A stretch of 64,000 nucleotides of DNA from the NCBI RefSeq assembly GCF_008630935.1, contig NZ_CP043908.1:1674001-1738000 (forward strand), read 5' to 3'. The stretch comes from Thermodesulfobacterium sp. TA1 (lineage in GTDB: Bacteria; Desulfobacterota; Thermodesulfobacteria; Thermodesulfobacteriales; Thermodesulfobacteriaceae). Each line of letters starts with the position of its first letter. Position 1 is the stretch's first letter. Under the pieces are notes generated by a model. It was not told where the DNA came from. It did not search any database and saw nothing but the letters and a program-made list of their open reading frames with translations. Made by a program: the position numbers and the translations under genes. This document shows positions 29,458 through 42,238 of the stretch, one piece after another.

Positions 29458-30249
29458 TTAAAACTCGGACTTAGTCCTTTCTATACAAGCATAGGCGTTA
29501 TGAGCATGAATAGACTCAAAGTTTTCTACTTCTACAAAAAACCAGCTTACTTCAGGATGTTCCCAAAGTCGTTTGGCCACAGCCCTTACCACATCCTCAA
29601 CAAACCTTGGGTTTTCATAAGCGACCTCTGTAACAAACTTTTCATCTGGTCTTTTTAAAAGAGAATAAACCGGGCTTGAGGCTGAATATTCAGCTATTTC
29701 TATCAACTCTTCTAACCAAATAAACTTTTTAAACCGTACCTTAAGGGTAATCAAGCTTCTTTGATTATGGGCTGAAAAACGACTGATAGATTTAGAGCAA
29801 GGGCAAAGGGTCATCACCGGAACCTTAGCTCCTATAATCAGGTCTTTCTTGCCTTCAGTATAACTGGCTAACAAAATACCTTGATACTCCATCAAAGAAG
29901 AAATCTGAGTAACCGGGGCTTTTTTTTGTAAAAAATAAGGAAAAAACATCTCTAAATGTGCGCTTTTAGCAGAAAGTCTTTGAGAGAGTTTTTTCAAAAG
30001 TTTTATCACGTTTTTTACATGAATCTCCCCTTTAAACTCGTTTATCACCTCGATAAATCGGCTCATGTGAGTGCCTTTAAACTTAGAAGGAAGGTCCACA
30101 TATAGATTAAGCTCTGCTACCGTATGCTGTAGCCCTTTTTCTCGGTCAAGCACTGTAACCGGATGTTTAAACCCTTTAATTCCTACTTTGTCTATATCTA
30201 TCTTTTCTTCTGGAGGAAGACTTTGTACGTCAATTAGTTCTGGCTTCAT
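29458..30249 (-). CDS. folE2: GTP cyclohydrolase FolE2 (type IB)
   Basis: First step of folate synthesis in organisms without, or in addition to, FolE1. The 263-residue protein has the FolE2 opening (PELIDVQSLPPEEKIDIDKVG), KGTHMSRF near residue 60, and the catalytic Cys in MTLCPCSKSIS. ATG 30249 is chosen because it overlaps the acsE stop as TGATG; a TTG 15 nt upstream is the alternative. Its place downstream of acsE fits supply of tetrahydrofolate to the Wood-Ljungdahl methyl branch encoded in the same run. Confidence 0.92.
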   Translation of the reverse strand: MKPELIDVQSLPPEEKIDIDKVGIKGFKHPVTVLDREKGLQHTVAELNLYVDLPSKFKGTHMSRFIEVINEFKGEIHVKNVIKLLKKLSQRLSAKSAHLEMFFPYFLQKKAPVTQISSLMEYQGILLASYTEGKKDLIIGAKVPVMTLCPCSKSISRFSAHNQRSLITLKVRFKKFIWLEELIEIAEYSASSPVYSLLKRPDEKFVTEVAYENPRFVEDVVRAVAKRLWEHPEVSWFFVEVENFESIHAHNAYACIERTKSEF

Positions 30250-31145
30250 CAGAGTTCTAACCAAAATTCTGAAAAGATGTTTTTCCCAAGAAGCACGTTG
30301 GTAGTTTTATAAATCTCCAACTCTTTAGGGCTTAAATCTTTAGGGTCTATTTCTTCTTCATCCATAATCCTTTCCACCAACCTTACCCAGTCGGGATGTA
30401 ATCCTTTGGCTATTTCTACAAGTTCTCGGTCATATACATTTAAAATGGCTGCATATAAATTATACTTCATAAGCATCATAAGCAGCACTCTATTTAGATA
30501 AGGTCTTAGTTTAGGATTGATCCCATTAGAAACGTTGGAAAGGCCTACGATGCTTTTAGCTCCTGGGGCCAAATCTTGTAGCATACTAAGAAAATTTAAA
30601 GCCTCTATTATCTGCTCTGCCCCTAAGGTAATAGGGGTAATGATAGGGTCCACCCAAATTTTTTCATTAGGAATACCTGCCTCGTTAAGATTCATAATAA
30701 GGTCTACTGCTAAAGCAGCCCGTTCGTTGGCATCCCTTGGCAAACCTTCATCCCCCCATAAAAGCGCTACCACCTCGCACCCGTACTCTGCAGCAAGGGG
30801 GATGAGTCTTTCCATCCTTTCTTTTTGAGCAGAGATAGAGTTCATCAAAAACCGTTTGGGAGCTTTTGAAACCTTAAGTCCTGCAGCCATAGCTTCTTCG
30901 TTGGTAGTATCTAAAGATATGGGAAGGTCTACCTCTGATTCCACTAACGTTACTATCCAAACTGCAAGCTCCTTTCCGTCTTTTTTGGCTGGGCCTATGT
31001 TAAGGTCTAAATAATCTGCCCCTAACTCTTTTTGCTCTTTTGCCATTTTTTTTATAGGCTCCGCTTCCCTGGCTTTGATGGCAGGACCTATGGTTTTAGA
31101 CATAATGTTGATGCTTTCTCCTACACAAACCACTTTTTTTTCCAT
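30249..31145 (-). CDS. acsE: Methyltetrahydrofolate:corrinoid/iron-sulfur protein methyltransferase AcsE
   Basis: Moves the methyl group between methyl-H4folate and the Co centre of the corrinoid iron-sulfur protein (AcsC/AcsD). The 298-residue TIM-barrel pterin-binding protein shows GESINIMSK near the N-terminus, GADYLDLNIGPAKKDG, PISLDTTNEEAM and IVGLSNVSNG motifs of the family. It is somewhat longer than the roughly 260-aa acetogen enzymes, with a C-terminal extension of about 35 residues. It lies between acsC and folE2. Confidence 0.93.
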   Translation of the reverse strand: MEKKVVCVGESINIMSKTIGPAIKAREAEPIKKMAKEQKELGADYLDLNIGPAKKDGKELAVWIVTLVESEVDLPISLDTTNEEAMAAGLKVSKAPKRFLMNSISAQKERMERLIPLAAEYGCEVVALLWGDEGLPRDANERAALAVDLIMNLNEAGIPNEKIWVDPIITPITLGAEQIIEALNFLSMLQDLAPGAKSIVGLSNVSNGINPKLRPYLNRVLLMMLMKYNLYAAILNVYDRELVEIAKGLHPDWVRLVERIMDEEEIDPKDLSPKELEIYKTTNVLLGKNIFSEFWLEL

Positions 31146-31167: not shown

Positions 31168-32526
31168 TTAAGATCTAAGTTTTTTTGCTAACTCTTTTAA
31201 GGCTGTAGGTAATCCATTTGCTTCTCTCGGACCTATCACTACCTCCCAACCTCCGAGCTCCTCTTCCAGCTCCCCTTTGATGCTGGCTACATATCCAGGT
31301 ATTACTAAAGTTCTGTGTTTTATCTTTTCGGCAATACCGGACCTTTTCACAAACTCTGCGATGTTGTCTGCATTAAACTTTCCTGCAGCCCAAGCAGTAA
31401 GCACAGAAAGCCCGTCTGTATCCTTTACTAAAAGCCAACAAGGAACCCTACTTCCTTCTATCTCTCCAGACACGATAAAATAGGTTAAAGCAAAATTACA
31501 GGTTACTACCACCGGAGAAAACGCATCTGGTCCGTTTATAGGATAAATCCCCTCTTCTACCACCAAAGGTTTCTGTGGGTCTGAATAAAGGTTGAACCTT
31601 TCTACCAACAAAGGGAATAACAACTCAGCCTTTAGGTCTGAAACCAAAATAATGCTGGCATATTTGGCTACAAAAATACTGGCTAAAAGATATTGCTCAG
31701 AAAGGTCTCCTGTATACCTATCCATAAAGGTTATCACCGGAAAGCCAAAAGGTTTAAACCGTTTTTTTATTGCTGCACGTCTTATGATAACTAAGTCCTC
31801 GAAAAGCTCCTTAGGATGTAAGGCTCCACTGTCTAAAACCAAGTCTTTTAAACCCTGTTTGGTTAATCCTTCAACCAAAGGGACCAACTCTCCTAAGTAA
31901 TTTGCAGAAACCACCAAAGGGACCTTTTTTTCTAAAGCCATTTGCCCCCAAGAAGATAAATTTTCTACTTTTCCTGGATAAACAAGGGGAATCGAGCCTC
32001 CACATGCCTCTATAGCCTGCTTTACTGTTTCTATGTCTCGGGAATCTAAAACTATAGCCAACTCTGGTAGTTCTTCCCTTACCCTTTTTATAAGGGTTAT
32101 AAATCTCTCTCCATTTCCCTCATCTCTAACACAAACGACTTCAGGCTTAAGGAGGTTGCCTACCCTTTCCCATCTAAGCTGTTGATAAGCCTTAATCCGT
32201 CTTGTAATTTCTTGGTCTTCCATAGAGGTATTTAAATAGGTTCCGATAAGAGGAGGGTTTTCAAACTTTTTTTCGTGTCTAAAAAGGACGGTCTCTCCTC
32301 CTAATTTATAAGGTGTTTCTGAAGTTCCTATAACAACCGTCCTTATAGGAGGTGCGGTTGCCTCGGCTATTTCTTCTTTAACCTTAGGGTCTACATAAGG
32401 GCATTGGTCTATCTCTGCCTGTCCTGCTGCCACCTTCATCGCAAAAGCAAGACAAGTAGGAAACCCACACTCTTTACAGTTTTTCTTGGGAAGAAGTTTC
32501 ATTATTTGAATGCCTGTAAGCGCCAT
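31168..32526 (-). CDS. acsC: Corrinoid/iron-sulfur protein large subunit AcsC
   Basis: Carries the corrinoid-interacting domain and a [4Fe-4S] cluster used for reductive activation of Co. The 452-residue protein begins with the cluster motif at C17, C20, C25 and C42 (NCKECGFPTCLAFAM then QCPYV), followed by TIM-barrel and C-terminal corrinoid-binding domains. It partners with the AcsD domain that is fused to MetF in this genome. Placed 36 nt after acsB. Confidence 0.93.
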   Translation of the reverse strand: MALTGIQIMKLLPKKNCKECGFPTCLAFAMKVAAGQAEIDQCPYVDPKVKEEIAEATAPPIRTVVIGTSETPYKLGGETVLFRHEKKFENPPLIGTYLNTSMEDQEITRRIKAYQQLRWERVGNLLKPEVVCVRDEGNGERFITLIKRVREELPELAIVLDSRDIETVKQAIEACGGSIPLVYPGKVENLSSWGQMALEKKVPLVVSANYLGELVPLVEGLTKQGLKDLVLDSGALHPKELFEDLVIIRRAAIKKRFKPFGFPVITFMDRYTGDLSEQYLLASIFVAKYASIILVSDLKAELLFPLLVERFNLYSDPQKPLVVEEGIYPINGPDAFSPVVVTCNFALTYFIVSGEIEGSRVPCWLLVKDTDGLSVLTAWAAGKFNADNIAEFVKRSGIAEKIKHRTLVIPGYVASIKGELEEELGGWEVVIGPREANGLPTALKELAKKLRS

Positions 32527-32562: not shown

Positions 32563-34782
32563 TTATTCTATCAAAGGAGGAAGGGTTAAAACCGGGTGAT
32601 TAACCTTTTCTACCCAAGTTTTTACCTCTTCCTCAGTGTTTGCCACTGTTTCGTCTGCTATCTTTTCTACCAAATCTGGAATTCCTATCTCTTCTGCCCT
32701 TTGTTGAAGTTTATCTTTTAACTCTTCTTTTAAGTTTTTAGGCATCCATACAACCCTTTTAAGCCCTCCTTCAGCCATTAAAAACTTGGGAGATACTATA
32801 TAATGTTTAGCTACCCCTAAAAATCCTGGGGTTTGTACTCCACCTCCTACCATTCCTGCCATGGTAGAAAATTTCATCCCTGTAGGGGTTAGCCCTGTAT
32901 AGTCTCTGTTTACTATCATGATTCCGTTTACCTCAGGAAGTACAGCAGCGATACACTCAAAACATCCACAAGCAGTCATAGGGTCTTTCATAATACTATA
33001 AAGGGCTACCTGTTGTACCTTACCTCTGGAAGCTTCTTTAACGAATTCGTTTATCCCAGAAAAATATCCATAAACCGGGTCTAAACCTTCTCCTTTAGGA
33101 ATGGGACGATTAGGTCCTGTAGGATTTATCTCATAACCTGCTTTGCCATCAAGCCAGTTATATGCCCCACACATACCCACTCTTTCAGGGGTAATTACAC
33201 ATACATGAGAAGGAGCAAAACTCTGGCATAAAGTGCAAGAATAGAAAACGTCTACCTTTTCGTCAACTAATCCAGCAATCCGTTCATCTCTAACCCGATA
33301 AATCTCTTTAGCTTTCTCTAAAATCTCTCTAACCTCAGGCTCTCGAGTATATATTTTTACCTGCACTTTATCCAAGATGGCGCTAAATTTTTCCTTAATC
33401 TTGGCATAAAGTATTAAGCCTAAGTGTTTAAAGGTAAAACCTTTTTCTACTGCTTGTTTAGATATCCTAAGCCACATCAAATGCCTTTGTCCTACATGCA
33501 TAACCCCTTGGGCATAGTTTATTAAATAATGGAACTGCCTTTCTATGATAGGTTCAAAATCTTCTTGCATGTTAGCCCCTGCTACCTCAACCACCACCGC
33601 TAAAGGCAACCTATAAGGAGGTCCCTGTTCTGAAAGGTCTTTTAGGTCTGAAATGTCTGGACCTATAACCTCTATCTTCCCATCTTCTACCTCGTCTAAA
33701 GGTTTAGATACCAAAAGCTCAACCCCTAAGGTTTTACCACCTCCACACTCTAAATACAAGTCTTCTTTCCTGACCCTTTCTCCTTCAAAAGAGGCTGCAT
33801 AGGCTACAGGAATATCAAGCTTAACCGAGGTAATTTTAAGCCCCCTTACCTCTAAGGCTGTATCCACCATCTTATCAACAGGCACATTAGCCACTAAATG
33901 TTCATAAAGACATACTCCAGGAACTTTTATCTCAGGTAGGTCCACGTTGGTTATTACCGGACATCCCAGGTTAAAAACACCCAAGGCATTAGCCGCCAAC
34001 TCTGGAGAGGGAGCACCGAAAGACAACACAAAGGCAAAAGTTCGGTCTTTGTTGTAAAGAAGATTTTTTTGTGCTTCTCCTGGTTTAACACCTCCAAAAG
34101 ACATGGCAACCCTGCAAGCAAATCCTATAGCAAAGGCAACAGAACTTATCTCAGGACCAAAAGGAACCAGCCTGGTTGACCAACCAAGTTGAACTCCTTC
34201 TTTAGCAAGTAATTCTGCTAAACTAATCCCTTTCCCTGTCCCGTGAAGGAATACATACAGATTTTTTTCTTGTAGCTCTCTGATGATTTTTATAGCACTT
34301 TCTATGTCTTCAGGAGCCCCTAAAATAGCTGCAAAACCAGGGGCTGTGCCATCTACAAACTCAACCCCTCTTTTTCTAAAAACCACGTCATCTGCCGCAC
34401 CAAGCCAAAGTTTGCCCTCTTCAGGATCCTCAGAAAGACAATAAAAATCCGGTTGTTTAAGATATCTAATAGCCTCGATAATTTCCTCAGCAAAAAGGGC
34501 TACAATGCCTGCATCTAAAGCCTTACCCCAAAAGAAAAAATCAGAAGAACTATCCTTAGGCAAAAGCTTTTTAATCTCTTCCAAAACCTCTCCACAATCA
34601 CCTAACCTTTTTACAGGATATCCTAAAAGCGCATAGATTATAGGAAAAAAATAAGCAGTATTAGGAAACCCAACAGCCTTTTCTTTCCCAAAAACCTTTA
34701 CAGCTTCTTCATATTCCTCTAAGGCCTTTTCAAAAATCAAATAAGCCCCTTTTATACCTATCTCACAAACTATCTTAGACAT
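32563..34782 (-). CDS. acsB: Acetyl-CoA synthase (CODH/ACS alpha subunit) AcsB
   Basis: Nickel-iron enzyme that assembles acetyl-CoA from a methyl group, CO and CoA, or cleaves it in reverse. The 739 residues match bacterial AcsB length (about 730). A-cluster ligands are visible in the C-terminal domain: CTLCQSFAPSHVCVITPERVG with MCGAYNW, and the Ni-binding CGC in TACGCFECIA. A bacterial-type N-terminal domain that contacts CO dehydrogenase is present. The normal partner, a catalytic AcsA/CooS, is not encoded beside it; the operon instead has a CooS-like protein without metal ligands. Confidence 0.95.
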   Translation of the reverse strand: MSKIVCEIGIKGAYLIFEKALEEYEEAVKVFGKEKAVGFPNTAYFFPIIYALLGYPVKRLGDCGEVLEEIKKLLPKDSSSDFFFWGKALDAGIVALFAEEIIEAIRYLKQPDFYCLSEDPEEGKLWLGAADDVVFRKRGVEFVDGTAPGFAAILGAPEDIESAIKIIRELQEKNLYVFLHGTGKGISLAELLAKEGVQLGWSTRLVPFGPEISSVAFAIGFACRVAMSFGGVKPGEAQKNLLYNKDRTFAFVLSFGAPSPELAANALGVFNLGCPVITNVDLPEIKVPGVCLYEHLVANVPVDKMVDTALEVRGLKITSVKLDIPVAYAASFEGERVRKEDLYLECGGGKTLGVELLVSKPLDEVEDGKIEVIGPDISDLKDLSEQGPPYRLPLAVVVEVAGANMQEDFEPIIERQFHYLINYAQGVMHVGQRHLMWLRISKQAVEKGFTFKHLGLILYAKIKEKFSAILDKVQVKIYTREPEVREILEKAKEIYRVRDERIAGLVDEKVDVFYSCTLCQSFAPSHVCVITPERVGMCGAYNWLDGKAGYEINPTGPNRPIPKGEGLDPVYGYFSGINEFVKEASRGKVQQVALYSIMKDPMTACGCFECIAAVLPEVNGIMIVNRDYTGLTPTGMKFSTMAGMVGGGVQTPGFLGVAKHYIVSPKFLMAEGGLKRVVWMPKNLKEELKDKLQQRAEEIGIPDLVEKIADETVANTEEEVKTWVEKVNHPVLTLPPLIE

Positions 34783-34810: not shown

Positions 34811-36958
34811 TTAAGTCCAAAATAGACTAAACATTTTTTTGGTTAAAGCTACTGTTTTGGGATGTCTGAGGATAAAAAGTTCCCCTCCTGCTAAAGCTAG
34901 ACACAAGGCAGTGATTGTCTCCATCATCACCCCTCTCATTTCAGCCTCTCCCATAAGCTCATCAGAAGGAAGGCTTACCTCTTTAGTTTTCCATACCTCT
35001 CTACCTATATTACAGATAAAAGGGTTTTGAAGCTTTTGGTCGTTGGCATAAAGGGCAGCAAGCCTTATTCTTTCCATCACAGAGTAGGTATATTCAAGCC
35101 CATATCCAAGAGCCCCTACAGAAGGGTCCATGATGATTTTTTCTAAAGGCACCCCTAAGTTTTCAAGTAAAATGTTTAACTGTTTGGCTATGTTTACATC
35201 GATAGGACTTTGGGCTATTACCGGCAGTTGATAACCCAAGGCCACCGCACCTAAAGTACGGTAATTTTCCTCAACTATAGGCCCAAAAAATACGTTGTCA
35301 TCTTTTATAACCTCTGCCACCTCTTTAAGCACTTCTGTGTCTTTTTCTGGATTATCACTCCCCCATATAATCAACGGGACCTCTACCGCTTCTCTAACCT
35401 TTTGTATAACCTTTTTGGCATGGTCTGGTCCCAAGTCTAAATAATTAGGGTCTGTACCTAATAAGTACACACAGATGGCTTCTGCCCCATATTCTTCTAC
35501 ACATTTTTTAGCCCAAGCCCCTGGGTCATGCCATACATCTCTAAAGTATTTAGCAACCACCTCTGGATAATCTTCCGGAACTACGTCTAAAACCTCCATA
35601 GCGACCTTTAACGGCTGGCCTAAATTACCCTCAAAGCCATGAAAAGGTAAAACCTCAGCTCCTCCGACGTTTAATGCTTTGTCTCCCTTTCCAAAGAATA
35701 TTTCTCTAATCTTGCCTGAACTAAGTTCACGATACAACTCTTCAGGAAGCCCTCTTATCCTTTCGGAAACACTGCGATATTCGCCTTTTATAATCTTTAT
35801 GGGTTCTGGCTTTGGAGCAGAAGTTTTTGCCTCGGGTTCCTTTACTAAAACCGGCTCTTTGGGCATTACTGAAACAACCGGTTTTTCTAAAGGCCTTTCT
35901 TTTACTGGCTCCTCCTTTTTCCCTGTAATTAAGGTTTCAAGCCTTAAAAGATGAGCTTTCAAGTTTTTTATCTCCTCTTCTAACTGCCTTTTATCTTCGT
36001 CTTTAAAAGAAAAGATCTTCTGCTCTTCTACGAGGTCTTCTGGAGGTAAGGGACGAGGATAAAAACCTGTTTTCTTAAGGATTTCAGGCAAGTACTCTTC
36101 CCAGCCTATAGCCATCAAATGAAATCCTCTTACTCCAGGAATTTCTTTTATTTTTTCTATCAACTCTACCGCTATCTGGATGCCTTCTTCTAAGGGGTCT
36201 TTAGCCTCGCGCATCCTTTTAACCAAATCTTCAGGAACGCAAGACCCTGGCAAATTGCTTTTAATATATTCGATCATACGAAAAGATTTAGGAGGAACGA
36301 TACCAGCCAAGATATATGCCTTTTCCGTAAGTCCTTCGTTGTGGGCGATATACATAAACTGTTTAAACTTGGTTACATCATAAACTAACTGAGTCTGAAT
36401 AAACTCAGCCCCTGCCCTAATTTTTTTAGCCAATCTTCTTACACGATATTCTGTTGGATCAGCAAAAGGGTTTTCTGTAGCCCCTAAAAAATAGGCTGGC
36501 CTTTCTCCCTTTATTTCTTCTCCGTTTAAAAACTTTCCTTCTTTAAGTTTATTAACCATCGCTATCAGCTGAACAGAGTCTAGATCAAACACCGGTTTTG
36601 CCTCGGGATGGTTACCAAACTTTGGATGGTCTCCTGTAGTGCAGAAAAGATTCTTTATTCCTAAGGCCCAAGCTCCAAGAAGGTCTGACTGCATAGCAAT
36701 CCGGTTTCTATCTCTACAGGTCATCTGCAGGATAGGCTCTATACCCTCAGACATAAGGGCTAAACAACCTGCTAAGCTTGAAAGCCTTACCATGGCAACT
36801 TGACAGTCAGTCACATTCGCTGCGTCTACATATCCTTTAAGCACCCTTGCCTTCTTTTTTAAAGGCTCAAGACTTGCGTTCTTCGGTGGAGCAAATTCAC
36901 AAGTAATAGCCATATAACCAGATTTTAAAACCCTTTCTAAATGACTTCTAAACCTCAC
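34811..36958 (-). CDS. metF-acsD: MetF-AcsD fusion: methylenetetrahydrofolate reductase plus corrinoid/iron-sulfur protein small subunit
   Basis: A single 715-codon frame. Residues 1-300 are a methylenetetrahydrofolate reductase TIM barrel (ITCEFAPPKNA, NVTDCQVAMVRLSS, LFCTTGDHPKFGNHPEA, FIQTQLVYD). Residues 318-345 look like a coiled coil and 346-390 form a Pro/Lys/Glu-rich linker. Residues 392-715 are a full AcsD domain (FGGAE-type opening NVGGAEVLPFHGFEG, LGTDPNYLDLGPDHA, SPIDVNIAKQLN, DPSVGALGYGLEYTYSVMERIR). The enzyme that makes methyl-H4folate is thus covalently tied to one subunit of the protein that receives the methyl group. The start is GTG with GGGAGAGG upstream. metV, the usual MetF partner, is immediately upstream. 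Confidence 0.92.
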   Translation of the reverse strand: MRFRSHLERVLKSGYMAITCEFAPPKNASLEPLKKKARVLKGYVDAANVTDCQVAMVRLSSLAGCLALMSEGIEPILQMTCRDRNRIAMQSDLLGAWALGIKNLFCTTGDHPKFGNHPEAKPVFDLDSVQLIAMVNKLKEGKFLNGEEIKGERPAYFLGATENPFADPTEYRVRRLAKKIRAGAEFIQTQLVYDVTKFKQFMYIAHNEGLTEKAYILAGIVPPKSFRMIEYIKSNLPGSCVPEDLVKRMREAKDPLEEGIQIAVELIEKIKEIPGVRGFHLMAIGWEEYLPEILKKTGFYPRPLPPEDLVEEQKIFSFKDEDKRQLEEEIKNLKAHLLRLETLITGKKEEPVKERPLEKPVVSVMPKEPVLVKEPEAKTSAPKPEPIKIIKGEYRSVSERIRGLPEELYRELSSGKIREIFFGKGDKALNVGGAEVLPFHGFEGNLGQPLKVAMEVLDVVPEDYPEVVAKYFRDVWHDPGAWAKKCVEEYGAEAICVYLLGTDPNYLDLGPDHAKKVIQKVREAVEVPLIIWGSDNPEKDTEVLKEVAEVIKDDNVFFGPIVEENYRTLGAVALGYQLPVIAQSPIDVNIAKQLNILLENLGVPLEKIIMDPSVGALGYGLEYTYSVMERIRLAALYANDQKLQNPFICNIGREVWKTKEVSLPSDELMGEAEMRGVMMETITALCLALAGGELFILRHPKTVALTKKMFSLFWT

Positions 36959-36971
36959 CTGACCTCTCCCA

Positions 36972-37640
36972 TTAAAATGTTAGGTCTTCCCTTTCTCTTT
37001 TTCTTGGACCTTCTCCGTAGGTTGTCCTCCAATCCTTTGGAGGAAAAATCTCATCAAGATTGTTAAGTTCTCCTCTATTTTGGAGTCTCGTAACGATTTC
37101 ATACCAAACACAAGGTATTTCCGGATTGACCTCGCATCTTTCTGTTTGAGACCCTCCACATGGTCCATTCAAAAGGCCTTTAGGACATCTGGCAATCGGA
37201 CAAAGCCCTGCAGTCTTATCGATAAAACAATCTCCGCAGGCTCGGCATCTCTCCTCCCAGACCCCAACCCCAAGATGTGCTCCTATAAACAAGGTATCGG
37301 TTCCAGGATAAACCCTTAACTCAGGATAAAGGTCGGCTATTAAGTTTACTCCTACCCCACAAGCTAAGCTTAATACTGCGTCGGCTTCTTTAGCAACCTC
37401 AGGTAAACCCTTTAATCCTACAGGATCACACTGCCTGATAAGGGTTTTTCCAACTGCGGTAAACTTTTTATCCTCCTTTGCCGCTATAAGGTTTAAACTT
37501 GAAACCAAAAGCTTTACCTCCCGGTCCCCTCCGGTAGCACAAATCCCAGAACATCCTCTACAGCCTAAAACTAAAACCTTTTTAAACTTACTTAAAATTT
37601 CCCAAAGTTTTTCTACAGGTTTTAACTCAGTAATTACCAT
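36972..37640 (-). CDS. metV: MetV, cysteine-rich partner of methylenetetrahydrofolate reductase
   Basis: Small zinc/iron-sulfur subunit that in acetogens forms the MetVF core enzyme. The 222 residues are rich in Cys: VLGCRGCSGICATGGDREV near the N-terminus, and CRACGDCFI, LCPIARCPKGLLNGPCGG and CEVNPEIPCVWYE towards the C-terminus, which matches the MTHFR C-terminal zinc-binding family. It sits 13 nt upstream of metF-acsD and 12 nt downstream of an MvhD-like gene, as in clusters where MetVF accepts electrons through Hdr/Mvh-type proteins. Confidence 0.88.
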   Translation of the reverse strand: MVITELKPVEKLWEILSKFKKVLVLGCRGCSGICATGGDREVKLLVSSLNLIAAKEDKKFTAVGKTLIRQCDPVGLKGLPEVAKEADAVLSLACGVGVNLIADLYPELRVYPGTDTLFIGAHLGVGVWEERCRACGDCFIDKTAGLCPIARCPKGLLNGPCGGSQTERCEVNPEIPCVWYEIVTRLQNRGELNNLDEIFPPKDWRTTYGEGPRKREREDLTF

Positions 37641-37652
37641 AAGCCTTCTCCG

Positions 37653-37988
37653 TTAAACTTTAAAAACCTCTTTCCACAAAGCATCTTCCTTTTCTTTACT
37701 AAAATAATCAAACCTTATCCTGTAGTCTTCTGCCCATCTTCCTAAAAATTTTTTTATGGTCTCTATCCTTTTTTCTGCCCTAAGATTTCCTATCCTTCCC
37801 TTACATATACCTTTTTTACAGGCTAAAACAAACACCTGCTGAAATCCCTCTTCCAAAACTTTCAACAACTCAACTGAAGTTAAACTTCCTGCACAGTCTA
37901 AAGTTTTAAAAACTATGTTTTCTTTTTCCTTAAACCTTTCTTCTAACCCAAGCTCCTTGCAACCAAAAACCAAAGTCTTTATCTTCAT
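37653..37988 (-). CDS. MvhD/FlpD-like small electron-transfer protein
   Basis: The 111-residue protein resembles the MvhD/FlpD family (hydrogenase iron-sulfur subunit, PF02662), which carries a [2Fe-2S] cluster and links HdrA-type flavoproteins to electron donors. Candidate ligands are C10, C32, C57 and C62, in the family pattern LDCAG...GFQQVFVLACKKGICKGRIGN; the GN after the fourth cysteine is typical. It is shorter and more divergent than MvhD proper (about 130-140 aa). Between metV and a CooS-like ferredoxin protein, it probably belongs to the electron path for methylene-H4folate reduction. No HdrA is encoded nearby. Confidence 0.65.
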   Translation of the reverse strand: MKIKTLVFGCKELGLEERFKEKENIVFKTLDCAGSLTSVELLKVLEEGFQQVFVLACKKGICKGRIGNLRAEKRIETIKKFLGRWAEDYRIRFDYFSKEKEDALWKEVFKV

Positions 37989-38004: not shown

Positions 38005-39474
38005 TTAAACGACCTTAATGGTTATTGCCTCAGAAGGACATTCTCCCACACAAACACCACAACCTGTACATCTTTGCAAATCTATTAAAAGGCTGTTTAA
38101 ACCATGGTCTATAAAAATGGCGGAAAAAGGACAGACCTTTAAACAGGCAAAACAGGTGATACACCTTTGTCGGTTTAGCTCAGCTATTTTTAGCGGTGAA
38201 ACCTTAGAGGGGAACCTATTCCTTATACTTTGTAAAACCACCTTTTGATAAAAAGATATATGCTCTGAAGAAGATAAAGCCCTCCTCATTTCCATGTCAA
38301 AAAGCACACGAGGCTTTGGCTGTTCTATACCTAAAGCTTTTCTTTTTGCTTCTATCTTTTGCAAAATGACTTCTAAAATCGGTTCTATCGGGCTAACCCC
38401 TTCAAAAAAGGTAAACCCTTTACTAAACAGATTAAAAGGTAAAAACTCCTTTCCTATACCTAAAACCTCTACCCCTAAACCTAAAAAGGCTGGAATAAAA
38501 AGCCCTGGGGTTTCCCCTTTGAGATGTTTCTCAGAACAGTTTAAAACCACCAAAGGTAGTTCTGCAAAAGTTTTTCCTAAACCTCCATAAGATACCATTT
38601 CCGACATGATAGAAAAAACCTCAGCCTGTCCTCTTAAACCTAATACCGGAGGCAACCCAAAAGCTTCTAAAAACTCTCTAAGCCTATCCCCAGCCTCCTC
38701 CATCCACTCAAAAAAAATTGCCTTTTTCTTTCCGTTTTCTTTTGTATCTCCTTTTACATACCATACCCATATGTTTTCTTTTAAAAGTCCTTTAATTAAA
38801 GAAACATAAGGTTCTTCTAAAAAAGAGCCTTCAAATAATACCAAACCTTTTAGATAGCCTGCTTTTAAGTTTTCATTAATAGGACCTAAGGAAGCCCGAA
38901 AAGTTCCCCCAAGGGTGTGCATCAAGTCTTCACATCCGATCCCTTCTATAAACCTTTCCTTTTCCTCTTCTTCTATGTCTTCCTCAACAAAACTCAACCC
39001 AAGACCCTGAAAACAAGACCTAAAAATTTCTACCCCAAAAACATAAGCCAAAGAAAGCTTCATCAACTGTTTATTAAAAGTAGCTTCTTCTATCTTTTTA
39101 GAAAAAATCTGATCATAGGTAAAAGCTATTTCTTTTTCTATACCATCAGGTAAAAGCCCTTGGTCTTTTAGCTGAAAAAACATCTCTTGAGGAAAGAAAA
39201 CACCTGCCTGGTTTAGCAGGTTATTATCAGTAAAAAGTCTTAAAAGTTTTTTTATGGTTTCACTCAACAAAACCCTTTCGGGAAGATTAGCCTCTAATCC
39301 TAAAAGGCGAATTAAAAGATTTAATTTTTCTGGTTTTTTTAAAGATATAGAATTTCCAGAAAATAAGGCTTTTTCTATTTTAAACAGATATCCTTTAAGC
39401 TTAAAAAGATGTAAACCGTAGTCCTTAACCAGACTTAACCCTAAGTCTTTTAACTGTTCCTTAGCGTCTAACAA
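38005..39474 (-). CDS. CooS/AcsA-like protein lacking cluster ligands, with C-terminal two-cluster ferredoxin domain
   Basis: Not a recognised named protein. Residues about 100-370 read like a Ni-CO dehydrogenase catalytic subunit: LLPDGIEKEIAFTY recalls the conserved ILPxGIDREIxE segment, LMKLSLAYVFGVEIF the LaDGWGGSMIA segment, and FGLPPVLGLRGQAEV the PPVLHxGSCVDN segment. The cysteines and histidine that ligate the C-cluster there are replaced (RGQAEV for GSCVDN), the tGC motif is replaced by YVKGDT, and the N-terminus has none of the B- and D-cluster cysteines. Residues 438-479 hold two ferredoxin motifs (C438, C441, C444, C448 and C469, C472, C475, C479). It should not oxidise CO. A role as electron carrier or as structural stand-in for CODH is inference. 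TTG start behind GAGGT. Confidence 0.7.
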   Translation of the reverse strand: MLDAKEQLKDLGLSLVKDYGLHLFKLKGYLFKIEKALFSGNSISLKKPEKLNLLIRLLGLEANLPERVLLSETIKKLLRLFTDNNLLNQAGVFFPQEMFFQLKDQGLLPDGIEKEIAFTYDQIFSKKIEEATFNKQLMKLSLAYVFGVEIFRSCFQGLGLSFVEEDIEEEEKERFIEGIGCEDLMHTLGGTFRASLGPINENLKAGYLKGLVLFEGSFLEEPYVSLIKGLLKENIWVWYVKGDTKENGKKKAIFFEWMEEAGDRLREFLEAFGLPPVLGLRGQAEVFSIMSEMVSYGGLGKTFAELPLVVLNCSEKHLKGETPGLFIPAFLGLGVEVLGIGKEFLPFNLFSKGFTFFEGVSPIEPILEVILQKIEAKRKALGIEQPKPRVLFDMEMRRALSSSEHISFYQKVVLQSIRNRFPSKVSPLKIAELNRQRCITCFACLKVCPFSAIFIDHGLNSLLIDLQRCTGCGVCVGECPSEAITIKVV

Positions 39475-39505
39475 GGTATACCTCGGCTAAAAAAATTTTA
39501 AAGTT

Positions 39506-39514
39506 ATTATAACA
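39506..39514 (-). promoter_or_regulatory. Extended -10 promoter before the CooS-like gene
   Basis: On the minus strand TGT immediately precedes TATAAT (39506-39511), an extended -10 element, about 32 nt upstream of the TTG start at 39474. No good -35 match is seen. It would allow the acs/met half of the run to be expressed apart from fhs-folD. Confidence 0.4.
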
Positions 39515-39551
39515 TATCTATACCAAAAGACTATAAAAAATCGAGATTTTA

Positions 39552-40457
39552 CTAAAACTGAACTTCTGATGGAAGTCCTTTTATGGCTTTAGCCGCCTCT
39601 AAGGTATTTTTCATCAGCATGGTAATCGTCATCGGACCAACTCCTCCAGGAACCGGGGTAATCAAAGAGGCTTTTTGTTTAACCGTTTCAAAGTCTACAT
39701 CTCCGCAAAGGATAGGTTTGCCTTCAGGAGAAGTTCCGATCCTATTAACCCCTACATCTATCACCACCACCCCTTCTTTTACCATGTCTGCTGTAATAAA
39801 CCTTGGTCTACCGGCTGCTACTATCAGGATGTCTGCTCTTCTGGTATGAAAAACAAGGTCTTTAGTAGCGGTATGACAAACCGTAACCGTTGCATTACCT
39901 ACAGGTTTAAGCTTTTGCATAAGAAGTATGGCTAAAGGTTTACCTACGATGTTACTTCTTCCGATGATAACCACCTCTTTACCCTCTACCTCTACTCCAG
40001 CTTCTTTTAAAAGAAGCAAAATACCGTAAGGTGTGCAAGGAATAAACGTAGGACTACCCATAACCAACCTTCCTAAGTTAAAAGGATGAAAACCGTCTAC
40101 GTCTTTCTCAGGGTTTATGGTGCAAATTACCTTTTTTTCGTCTATATGCTTAGGGAGGGGAAGCTGAACCAAAATACCATGGATGTTTGGGTCTTGGTTA
40201 TAGCGCTCTATAAGGGCTAATAGTTCTTTTTCTGAAATGTCTCTTGGAAGGGTTTCTTGCACTGAATAAAAACTTAATTCTTTAGCTAATCTTTGTTTAG
40301 CGGTAACATAAGAAACTGAAGCTGGATTGTCTCCTACCAAAATAGTAACCAAACCTGGAGTTATTTTATGTTTTTCTTTTAACTCTTCTACCTCTTTTTT
40401 AATTTGTTCTCTTATTTTTTTTGCTACTTCTGTCCCTTTTAAAATTTTAGCCTCCAT
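39552..40457 (-). CDS. folD: Bifunctional methylenetetrahydrofolate dehydrogenase / methenyltetrahydrofolate cyclohydrolase FolD
   Basis: Second and third steps of the methyl branch. The 301-residue protein has the catalytic YVTAKQRLAKEL (Tyr and Lys) near residue 50, ILVQLPLPKHID near residue 95, DVDGFHPFNLGRL near residue 120 and the NADP-binding VVIIGRSNIVGKPLA near residue 163. The C-terminal TPVPGGVGPMTITMLM is standard. Encoded 14 nt after fhs. Confidence 0.95.
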   Translation of the reverse strand: MEAKILKGTEVAKKIREQIKKEVEELKEKHKITPGLVTILVGDNPASVSYVTAKQRLAKELSFYSVQETLPRDISEKELLALIERYNQDPNIHGILVQLPLPKHIDEKKVICTINPEKDVDGFHPFNLGRLVMGSPTFIPCTPYGILLLLKEAGVEVEGKEVVIIGRSNIVGKPLAILLMQKLKPVGNATVTVCHTATKDLVFHTRRADILIVAAGRPRFITADMVKEGVVVIDVGVNRIGTSPEGKPILCGDVDFETVKQKASLITPVPGGVGPMTITMLMKNTLEAAKAIKGLPSEVQF

Positions 40458-40471
40458 AGTCTTTAACCCCT

Positions 40472-42238
40472 TTATTCAATTCCTATAATTTTTCCTGTTT
40501 TTAAATCAACCTCTATCTTACGAAACCTTGGATTGGAAACCGTTCCAGGCATAAGGTTTATCTCACCAGAAATAGGAACTATTAACCTTGCCCCTCTAAA
40601 AACCATGATATCTCTCACGTTAAAAACCCAATCTTTAGGAACCCCTCTTAATTTAGGATTGTCTGAAAGTGAAAGACTGGTTTTAGCCATACAAACAAAA
40701 AGCTCTGAAAGGTCTTCGTTTTTAAGTTGGTTTAGTTTTTGTTCGGCTAAGGGAGAAAAGCATACCTCTTTTGCTCCATATATTTCTTTCGCGATTTTCT
40801 CTATTTTAGCCTGCAAAGTTTCTTTGCTTTCATAAAGAAAAGAAAAATTGTTTGGGGTTTCGCAGGCCTCTATCACTGCCTCAGCCAGTTCAAGGGCTCC
40901 TTCTCCTCCTTTTAACCAGTGGTCTGAACAAACCGCAACCACTCCCATTTCTTGGCAAAATCTTTTAACCACCTCTATTTCTTCTTTAAAATCATAGGTA
41001 AACCGATTGATACAAACTACAGGTTTTATACCGCTTTTTTGGATGATGTTTATACAGTGGGATAAAAGCTCACATCCTTTTTCTACTAAGTCTGGTCTTA
41101 AAGATTGATACTCTTGGGGAAGAGGTTTATTTTTTTGAGGTATAGGTGCTCCTCCGTGGTATTTTAAAGCCCTTAAAGTAACTACCAATACCACAGCCTG
41201 AGGAGAAAGACCAGATAACCTACATTTAATATTCCAAAACTTTTCATACCCTATTTCTGCCCCAAAACCCGATTCAGTTATATGATAGTCTGAGAGTTTT
41301 AATCCTAAATAGTCTGCGATGATAGAAGATTGTCCTAAAGCTATGTTGGCAAAAGGCCCGGTGTGGATAAAAACAGGTTGACCTTCCATCGTTTGAGCAA
41401 GGGTGGGATTTATAGCCTCTACCAACCAAGCTGTCATCGCTCCTGCTACTTCCAAGTCTTCAGCGGTGATAGGTTTTCCCTTTTTATCATAAGCTAACAC
41501 TATATTGCCTACCCTTTGTCTTAAATCTTTTAAATCTTTAACAATAGAAAGAATGGCCATCAGTTCTGAAGCAGGTGCTATCCAAAACTTACTTTCCATC
41601 AAAACGCCATCTTTTTTTTCACCAAGACCTATCAGCACCTTTCTTAAAGCCTGGGCACAAAAGTCTATTATCCAGGGAAACTCTACTCTTTTTGGGTCTA
41701 TGTTAAGTCTTTTGAGCCCTATTTTTGCAAACTCTTCATCTGAATACATCTCTTCGTAGTGGAGCCTTGAGGTAAGGGCTACCATGCCAAGGTTATGGGC
41801 GTTCATCACGGCGTTTATATCTCCGGTGAGCCCAAAAGAAATTTTTTCTAAAGGTATTACTTGAGATAAACCACCTCCAGTCCCTCCTCCTTTAAGGTTA
41901 AACGTAGGACCTGAAGAAGGCTGTCTAATAGCACCACTTACTTTTTTTCCTTTTTTAGCCAAACCCTGGATAAGACCTATGGTGGTAGTAGTTTTACCTT
42001 CTCCAAAAGGAGTGGGAACTATAGCCGTAACGTTTATATACTTACCATTAGGCTTGTTTTTTAACCTTTTCATTACTTTAGCATAATCAACCTTAGCCAG
42101 ATAGTAGCCATAAGGGATAAGCTCTTCTGGTAAGATCCCAGCCTCTTCTGCAAGTTCAAAAACTTTTTTCATTTGTTTCTCAGCTTGATAGGCTATCTCC
42201 CAGGTAGACATCTTCGTTGGGTCTGTTTTTCTTTTCAT
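40472..42238 (-). CDS. fhs: Formate-tetrahydrofolate ligase Fhs
   Basis: ATP-dependent activation of formate to 10-formyl-H4folate, entry to the methyl branch. The 588-residue protein is slightly longer than usual (about 556). The nucleotide-binding segment TPFGEGKTTTTIGL near residue 75, GGGTGGGLSQVIPLE, FGAEIGYEKFWNIKC and the C-terminal GEINLMPGTVSNPRF are clear. First gene of the minus-strand run, behind a consensus-like promoter. Confidence 0.95.
   Translation of the reverse strand: MKRKTDPTKMSTWEIAYQAEKQMKKVFELAEEAGILPEELIPYGYYLAKVDYAKVMKRLKNKPNGKYINVTAIVPTPFGEGKTTTTIGLIQGLAKKGKKVSGAIRQPSSGPTFNLKGGGTGGGLSQVIPLEKISFGLTGDINAVMNAHNLGMVALTSRLHYEEMYSDEEFAKIGLKRLNIDPKRVEFPWIIDFCAQALRKVLIGLGEKKDGVLMESKFWIAPASELMAILSIVKDLKDLRQRVGNIVLAYDKKGKPITAEDLEVAGAMTAWLVEAINPTLAQTMEGQPVFIHTGPFANIALGQSSIIADYLGLKLSDYHITESGFGAEIGYEKFWNIKCRLSGLSPQAVVLVVTLRALKYHGGAPIPQKNKPLPQEYQSLRPDLVEKGCELLSHCINIIQKSGIKPVVCINRFTYDFKEEIEVVKRFCQEMGVVAVCSDHWLKGGEGALELAEAVIEACETPNNFSFLYESKETLQAKIEKIAKEIYGAKEVCFSPLAEQKLNQLKNEDLSELFVCMAKTSLSLSDNPKLRGVPKDWVFNVRDIMVFRGARLIVPISGEINLMPGTVSNPRFRKIEVDLKTGKIIGIE

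Follow-up and report, generated by a model that had tools for sequence, protein, structure and literature searches.

A ligand-less CO dehydrogenase homologue fused to a ferredoxin in the acetyl-CoA synthase operon of Thermodesulfobacterium

Results

The locus and its genes

The window analysed here is a stretch of 64,000 nucleotides from Thermodesulfobacterium sp. TA1, whose complete genome of 1.83 Mb belongs to the same genus as the Thermodesulfobacterium species compared with it. The hosts are hot-spring sulfate-reducing bacteria. A gene cluster in the window has the order fhs, folD, pseudo-acsA, mvhD, metV, metF:acsD, acsB, acsC, acsE, and the pseudo-acsA gene at its third position is the subject of this study. 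Its strand, missing from the earlier note, is minus. The features are, in window positions:

39552..42238, minus strand: FolD (39552-40457) and Fhs (40472-42238), the methyl branch of the same cluster, with synteny conserved in relatives; both are named by family
39475..39551, minus strand: intergenic stretch between folD and the fusion gene, with TATAAT (39506-39511) and GAGG (39481-39484) common to four species, compared by eye
38005..39474, minus strand: pseudo-AcsA:ferredoxin fusion, an intact open reading frame of 489 aa with TTG start, CooS homology and orthologs in three species
39106..39333, minus strand: remnant of the AcsA N-terminal helical domain (residues 48-123) without B/D-cluster Cys, from a separate hhalign match and the ligand table
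38359..38946, minus strand: AcsA Rossmann fold 2 (residues ~177-372) without C446, C476 and C526, from hhalign, the ligand table and the fold search
38269..38358, minus strand: C-terminal tail of ACS-operon AcsA (residues 373-402), LGIxxPKPRVLFDMxMRRxL, 63% identical to canonical AcsA
38008..38178, minus strand: 2[4Fe-4S] ferredoxin domain (residues 433-489) with 8 invariant Cys, assigned by Pfam Fer4 families and resembling the C-terminus of the relatives' operonic Fe-S protein
37653..37988, minus strand: MvhD/FlpD-like [2Fe-2S] electron-transfer protein (PF02662, E=5.5e-12)
36972..37640, minus strand: MetV-like subunit of methylene-THF reductase (PF12225)
34811..36958, minus strand: MetF:AcsD fusion of methylene-THF reductase and corrinoid protein small subunit (PF02219, PF03599)
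32563..34782, minus strand: AcsB, acetyl-CoA synthase (NF040764 over cut-off)
31168..32526, minus strand: AcsC, corrinoid protein large subunit (NF003195 over cut-off)
30249..31145, minus strand: AcsE-like methyltransferase (PF00809, NF005719)

Orthologs of the fusion, 53-55% identical to it, were found in T. commune, T. thermophilum and T. hveragerdense. The start region is common to all four species, with the GAGG site 6 bases upstream of the TTG start; a consensus scan made no call on the TATAAT at 39506-39511. The fusion gene may lead its own transcript. Within 39475-39578, besides the common TATAAT, a terminator-like hairpin was noted at the end of folD. The MetF:AcsD fusion suggests a physical link between the methyl branch and the corrinoid protein. 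It also occurs in several canonical relatives, and the T. geofontis clade has two separate genes. Genome labels are G000 for the window's genome, G001 for T. thermophilum, G007 for T. hveragerdense, G013 for T. commune DSM 2178 (PMC4319511) and G005 for T. geofontis OPF15 (PMC3624685).

Descent from CO dehydrogenase

The earlier note had proposed a pseudoenzyme derived from CO dehydrogenase (CODH) that now carries electrons or partners AcsB or MetVF structurally. The descent and the ligand loss stood: CooS/AcsA homology was found (hhalign E=1.3e-31), and every metal ligand is lost. The NCBIfam model of the anaerobic CODH catalytic subunit, TIGR01702, matches residues 169-280 (E=2.8e-9, 35.7 bits), far from its equivalog cut-off of 478 bits. 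Pfam detects only the ferredoxin in the fusion protein; it gave no Prismane (PF03063) match there, the genome's match to that family being another gene, and the product does not class with Hcp. In a profile comparison, the four pseudo-AcsA with no CooS among them were aligned to nine intact CooS. The probability was 99.9%, with profile residues 173-399 lying on CooS 423-668, and residues 42-121 matched CooS 129-208 separately (E=1.3e-7); five column-shuffled controls reached at most 0.5%. The landmark segments that the earlier note had picked out, GLLPDGIEKEI, LGGTFRAS and LPPVL, all fall inside the aligned blocks.

A structure search giving no CODH fold had been named beforehand as what would speak against this descent. 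An AlphaFold2 model (pLDDT 70) had CODHs as all of its best 47 PDB matches (E 1e-12 to 1e-9), in a search that is not independent of homology, the model's alignment having contained CooS relatives. Because AlphaFold2 on the four pseudo-AcsA alone gave an unusable model (pLDDT 32), the hhalign profile test serves as the independent evidence of descent.

Metal ligands and retained segments

Ligand numbers follow the C. hydrogenoformans enzyme, with positions placed by motif and spacing. As the earlier note had it, C-cluster and N-terminal B/D-cluster cysteines are absent, and the ligand table extends this to all four orthologs. None of the C-cluster ligands (His and five Cys) remains in any of them: deletions have taken away the B/D-cluster segment together with C-cluster positions H261, C295 and C333, and C446, C476 and C526 are either substituted or fall in gaps. 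Rossmann fold 1, which would lie immediately upstream of the fusion's Rossmann fold 2, has been deleted. Outside the ferredoxin, C181 and C313 are the only invariant Cys or His in the four orthologs. The two C-terminal ferredoxin motifs are real by Pfam standards, with two CxxCxxCxxxC motifs at residues 438-479 and Fer4 families over cut-off.

The segments best conserved relative to canonical AcsA are the tail (residues 373-402, 63%), residues 263-280 (61%) and residues 177-215 (43%). A tail pattern, R[VI][LF].DM..RR, was found in 9/9 ACS-operon AcsA (such C-termini are seen, e.g., at loci L126, L133-L135 and L137-L141) vs 0/11 stand-alone CooS, in a set recruited without the tail pattern (RVLFDMEM), and it thus separates ACS-linked from stand-alone CODHs in the tested set. 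The tail alone matched no PDB sequence. Both marks of an ACS-associated AcsA, the acs-operon position and the operonic C-terminal tail, were found for the fusion. It lies where acsA had been expected, between folD and the mvhD/metV/acsB run, as canonical acsA does. Rossmann fold 2, tail and gene position show descent from ACS-operon AcsA; judged by its sequence, the fusion is the operon's own acsA, degraded and predicted to be non-catalytic. With the operonic AcsA of other Thermodesulfobacteriaceae it shares the folD-mvhD/metV/acsB position, Rossmann fold 2, part of the helical domain and the tail. It differs in lacking Rossmann fold 1 and the B-, C- and D-cluster ligands and in the added ferredoxin, and CooC is missing in two of the four genomes.

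Origin of the fusion

The canonical relatives have fhs, folD, acsA, an hdrA-like gene (~960 aa), a gene of 173-223 aa, an Fe-S protein of 184-196 aa, mvhD and metV. The window's clade lacks hdrA, the 221-aa gene and a separate Fe-S gene; here acsA carries the ferredoxin and adjoins mvhD. The C-terminal ferredoxin of the relatives' operonic Fe-S protein is 38-48% identical to the fused domain, a match that rests on a short domain, and it has the same site beside mvhD. The best matches to the ferredoxin alone were mostly open reading frames of ~180-190 aa; wherever the operon around them was read, they proved to be this operonic Fe-S protein. Unlike the fusion, that protein (184-196 aa) is a separate gene with extra N-terminal Cys motifs. 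From gene order and ferredoxin similarity we infer that the fusion probably arose in one step: a single deletion would have taken out everything from the end of acsA through hdrA and the 221-aa gene to the start of the Fe-S gene, so that acsA ran on into the ferredoxin beside mvhD.

Genome G002 is sister to the window's clade (97% in the operon-protein tree). Its intact acsA is followed directly, in tandem, by a degenerate second copy of 601 aa (L147:9095-10897) that is without H261, C295 and the C-terminal tail.

Absence of other CODHs and of CooC

The earlier note had found no catalytic acsA in the window. This holds for the whole complete genome, where TIGR01702 and PF03063 find this gene and Hcp only and thus no separate complete CooS. 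The complete genome of T. commune shows the same pattern with TIGR01702, with no other CODH. A Mo-type CODH as substitute was rejected, no PF20256 match being found in the window's genome. The reductive glycine pathway was considered as a substitute; none of 16 genomes had a GcvP match over cut-off. Acetyl-CoA synthetase was over cut-off in 15/16 genomes tested.

CooC is the Ni-insertase. CooC-like matches of at least 153 bits are absent from the genomes of the window, T. commune and T. geofontis and from G004, G009 and G012, while 21 genomes with a strong CooS match have them (Fisher p=4.6e-5 for the association). The exceptions are G008, G014 and G039, with strong CooS and no strong CooC, and G011, with neither. 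A second, weaker CooC relative (80-92 bits) is kept in all six genomes with a dead CODH and occurs in canonical genomes as well; as a guess, it might serve ACS. Separate CooS genes adjoining CooC were seen in T. thermophilum (L150:3663-6646, ~60% GC) and T. hveragerdense (L151:7090-9901, ~49% GC). Because GC around the acs operons of both species is 38%, these genes were apparently acquired later by transfer, in species with a dead AcsA.

A second clade with a dead AcsA

The operonic AcsA of T. geofontis (G005), G004, G009 and G012 is full length; H261 is missing, as are both D-cluster Cys and one or two more of the C-cluster Cys, and the B-cluster is kept. No other CODH was seen in these genomes, and CooC is absent there. 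Like the fusion, this AcsA is in an ACS operon, has lost C-cluster ligands and goes with no CooC and no other CODH seen. Unlike the fusion, it is full length with an N-terminal extension of ~100 aa and has neither ferredoxin nor MvhD. A tree of seven operon proteins places the two dead-CODH clades apart, and a shared origin was rejected (AU p=0.0005). By these sequence comparisons, loss of C-cluster ligands is shown to have arisen independently in the T. geofontis clade.

MetE-type methionine synthase was observed in 5/6 dead-CODH genomes (not T. geofontis; e.g. G000:C1:1769302-1770270) and in 0/5 others, and full-length MetH gave no match in any of the eleven genomes checked. T. geofontis is reported to require CO2 (PMC3624685).

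Acetyl-CoA synthase

ACS domain A1 docks CODH in acetogens. AcsB of the window passes the equivalog cut-off and looks intact, with a conserved catalytic domain. Mapped by hand, its V140, V143 and F229 occupy the places of I146, V149 and F229 in the CO alcove of the Moorella enzyme (PMC11474084). At positions invariant in ten canonical AcsB, changes common to the whole of the window's clade (four members) number 30/198 in A1, 8/106 in A2 and 0/126 in A3, the catalytic domain, with domain borders set by hand at residues 320 and 490; the excess in A1 vs the rest is significant (p=2.4e-5). It is not general, because the counts in the T. geofontis clade are 5/198, 7/106 and 9/126.

Selection on the fusion

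Compared pairwise, the fusion has a dN/dS of 0.31-0.35 when the window is set against each of the other three species, and of 0.41-0.49 when those three are compared with one another. Against the window, the operon neighbours have 0.05-0.11 apart from MvhD, which is relaxed like the fusion (0.24-0.33). The fusion is under relaxed or weak purifying selection in the four species. The reading frame is intact in all of them vs ~20 stops expected in a neutral simulation. Its most constrained parts, in the comparison of the window with T. commune, are the ferredoxin (dN/dS 0.08) and the tail (0.14).

Discussion

In this study we describe an AcsA that has lost its metal ligands and gained a ferredoxin in the operon of an ACS. 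What might such a protein do? We lean slightly towards the joint reading that it is a non-catalytic scaffold which docks on ACS and whose ferredoxin feeds electrons. A scaffold or carrier role fits the retained Rossmann fold 2, the ACS-type tail and the intact ferredoxin. The low dN/dS of ferredoxin and tail between the window and T. commune, the lack of another CODH and of CooC, and the remodelled A1 of ACS speak for it as well. ACS contacts in known complexes involve Rossmann fold 2 and terminal extensions; in the Methanosarcina complex mostly Rossmann fold 2 and the C-terminal extension touch ACS (PMC11474084). By analogy, the tail of the fusion may meet ACS as in those complexes, although ACS docking in C. 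autoethanogenum needs no such tail (PMC11474084), which counts against a docking role of the tail. The retained Rossmann fold 2 and tail would thus dock on ACS or partner proteins, and the ferredoxin would pass low-potential electrons to MvhD, MetV or MetF, re-reduce the corrinoid protein and ACS, or do both. Several results count against a scaffold: the fusion is far less constrained (dN/dS 0.31-0.49) than its neighbours, neither the tail nor the ferredoxin stands out as more constrained among the three close species, where changes are few, and the T. geofontis clade has neither a remodelled A1 in ACS nor a fused ferredoxin.

The same weak constraint is what one would expect of a decaying remnant, whose product has no role or of which only the ferredoxin end matters, the AcsA part being passive ballast. 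Large deletions and the relaxed MvhD point the same way, as do the low values of most operon neighbours. However, the frame has survived in four species where neutrality would have brought some twenty stops, the tail still resembles AcsA, as does the beginning of Rossmann fold 2, and T. thermophilum and T. hveragerdense keep the fusion despite having another CooS. We consider a remnant rather unlikely. It is very improbable that the protein regulates, or senses CO or redox state through its fold or ferredoxin: the gene does head the mvhD-to-acsE run and is preceded by the shared TATAAT, but no DNA-binding or signalling domain was found with Pfam and NCBIfam, and outside the ferredoxin the protein retains no residues that could form a CO-binding metal site. 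Catalysis at a rebuilt or different metal site, making CO or carrying out a related reaction, would account for an intact-looking ACS in a genome where no other CODH was found. It seems more doubtful still, as the ligand positions are all gone, no His and only two Cys are invariant outside the ferredoxin, Rossmann fold 1 is missing and the Ni-insertase CooC is lost. That the likeness to CODH is mere chance and the fold another is hardly credible, since the score far below the TIGR01702 cut-off, the missing Pfam Prismane match and the unusable model without CooS relatives are outweighed by the profile match (99.9%, E=1e-31, five shuffles at most 0.5%), the shared tail, the gene position and the fold search.

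Related cases are known. The archaeal Ni-CODH groups A-4 and A-6, compared from PMC6344411 only, are CODH homologs with incomplete C-cluster residues as in the fusion, but they keep most C-cluster Cys and include no AcsA with a fused ferredoxin. In that work Inoue et al. (2019) listed archaeal groups with incomplete sites and excluded hits below 550 aa as well as any sequence whose cluster regions had deletions (PMC6344411). According to PMC7005905, Dehalococcoides mccartyi has ACS and no CODH, like the window's genome, and acetyl-CoA cleavage with CO release has been proposed for it; it differs in lacking metF and acsE, both present in the window's genome, and the passages on it mention no AcsA remnant. 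A 2026 survey of Desulfobacterota collected homologs by BLAST (E<1e-5, 70% coverage), followed by phylogeny and synteny; its text has T. geofontis in the reference list only, and T. commune is absent from it (PMC12827605). A search of the open-access literature found no related paper on a pseudoenzyme, CODH and ACS, which is no proof of novelty. Surveys of the Wood-Ljungdahl pathway by gene presence could count the full-length, ligand-less AcsA of T. geofontis as a CODH, and length-filtered surveys miss the short fusion.

CODH normally makes the CO for acetyl-CoA synthesis, and an ACS without it raises the question of the source or fate of CO. Since no CODH was found, ACS would have to obtain its CO from another source, or else work in reverse and split acetyl-CoA with release of CO. 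Both T. commune and T. geofontis have been isolated and described, and their genomes are complete, so that one could measure how they grow when CO is supplied or withheld and whether they release it. The pieces retained in the fusion may also point to the minimal part of a CODH needed to meet ACS and its partners. In conclusion, we give about even chances to the wider view that a CODH was converted from a CO source into a docking and electron module in ACS complexes, with dead CODHs having arisen at least two times in one genus. If true, this would imply a niche for ACS without CODH, in which CO comes from outside or acetyl-CoA is cleaved for methyl groups.
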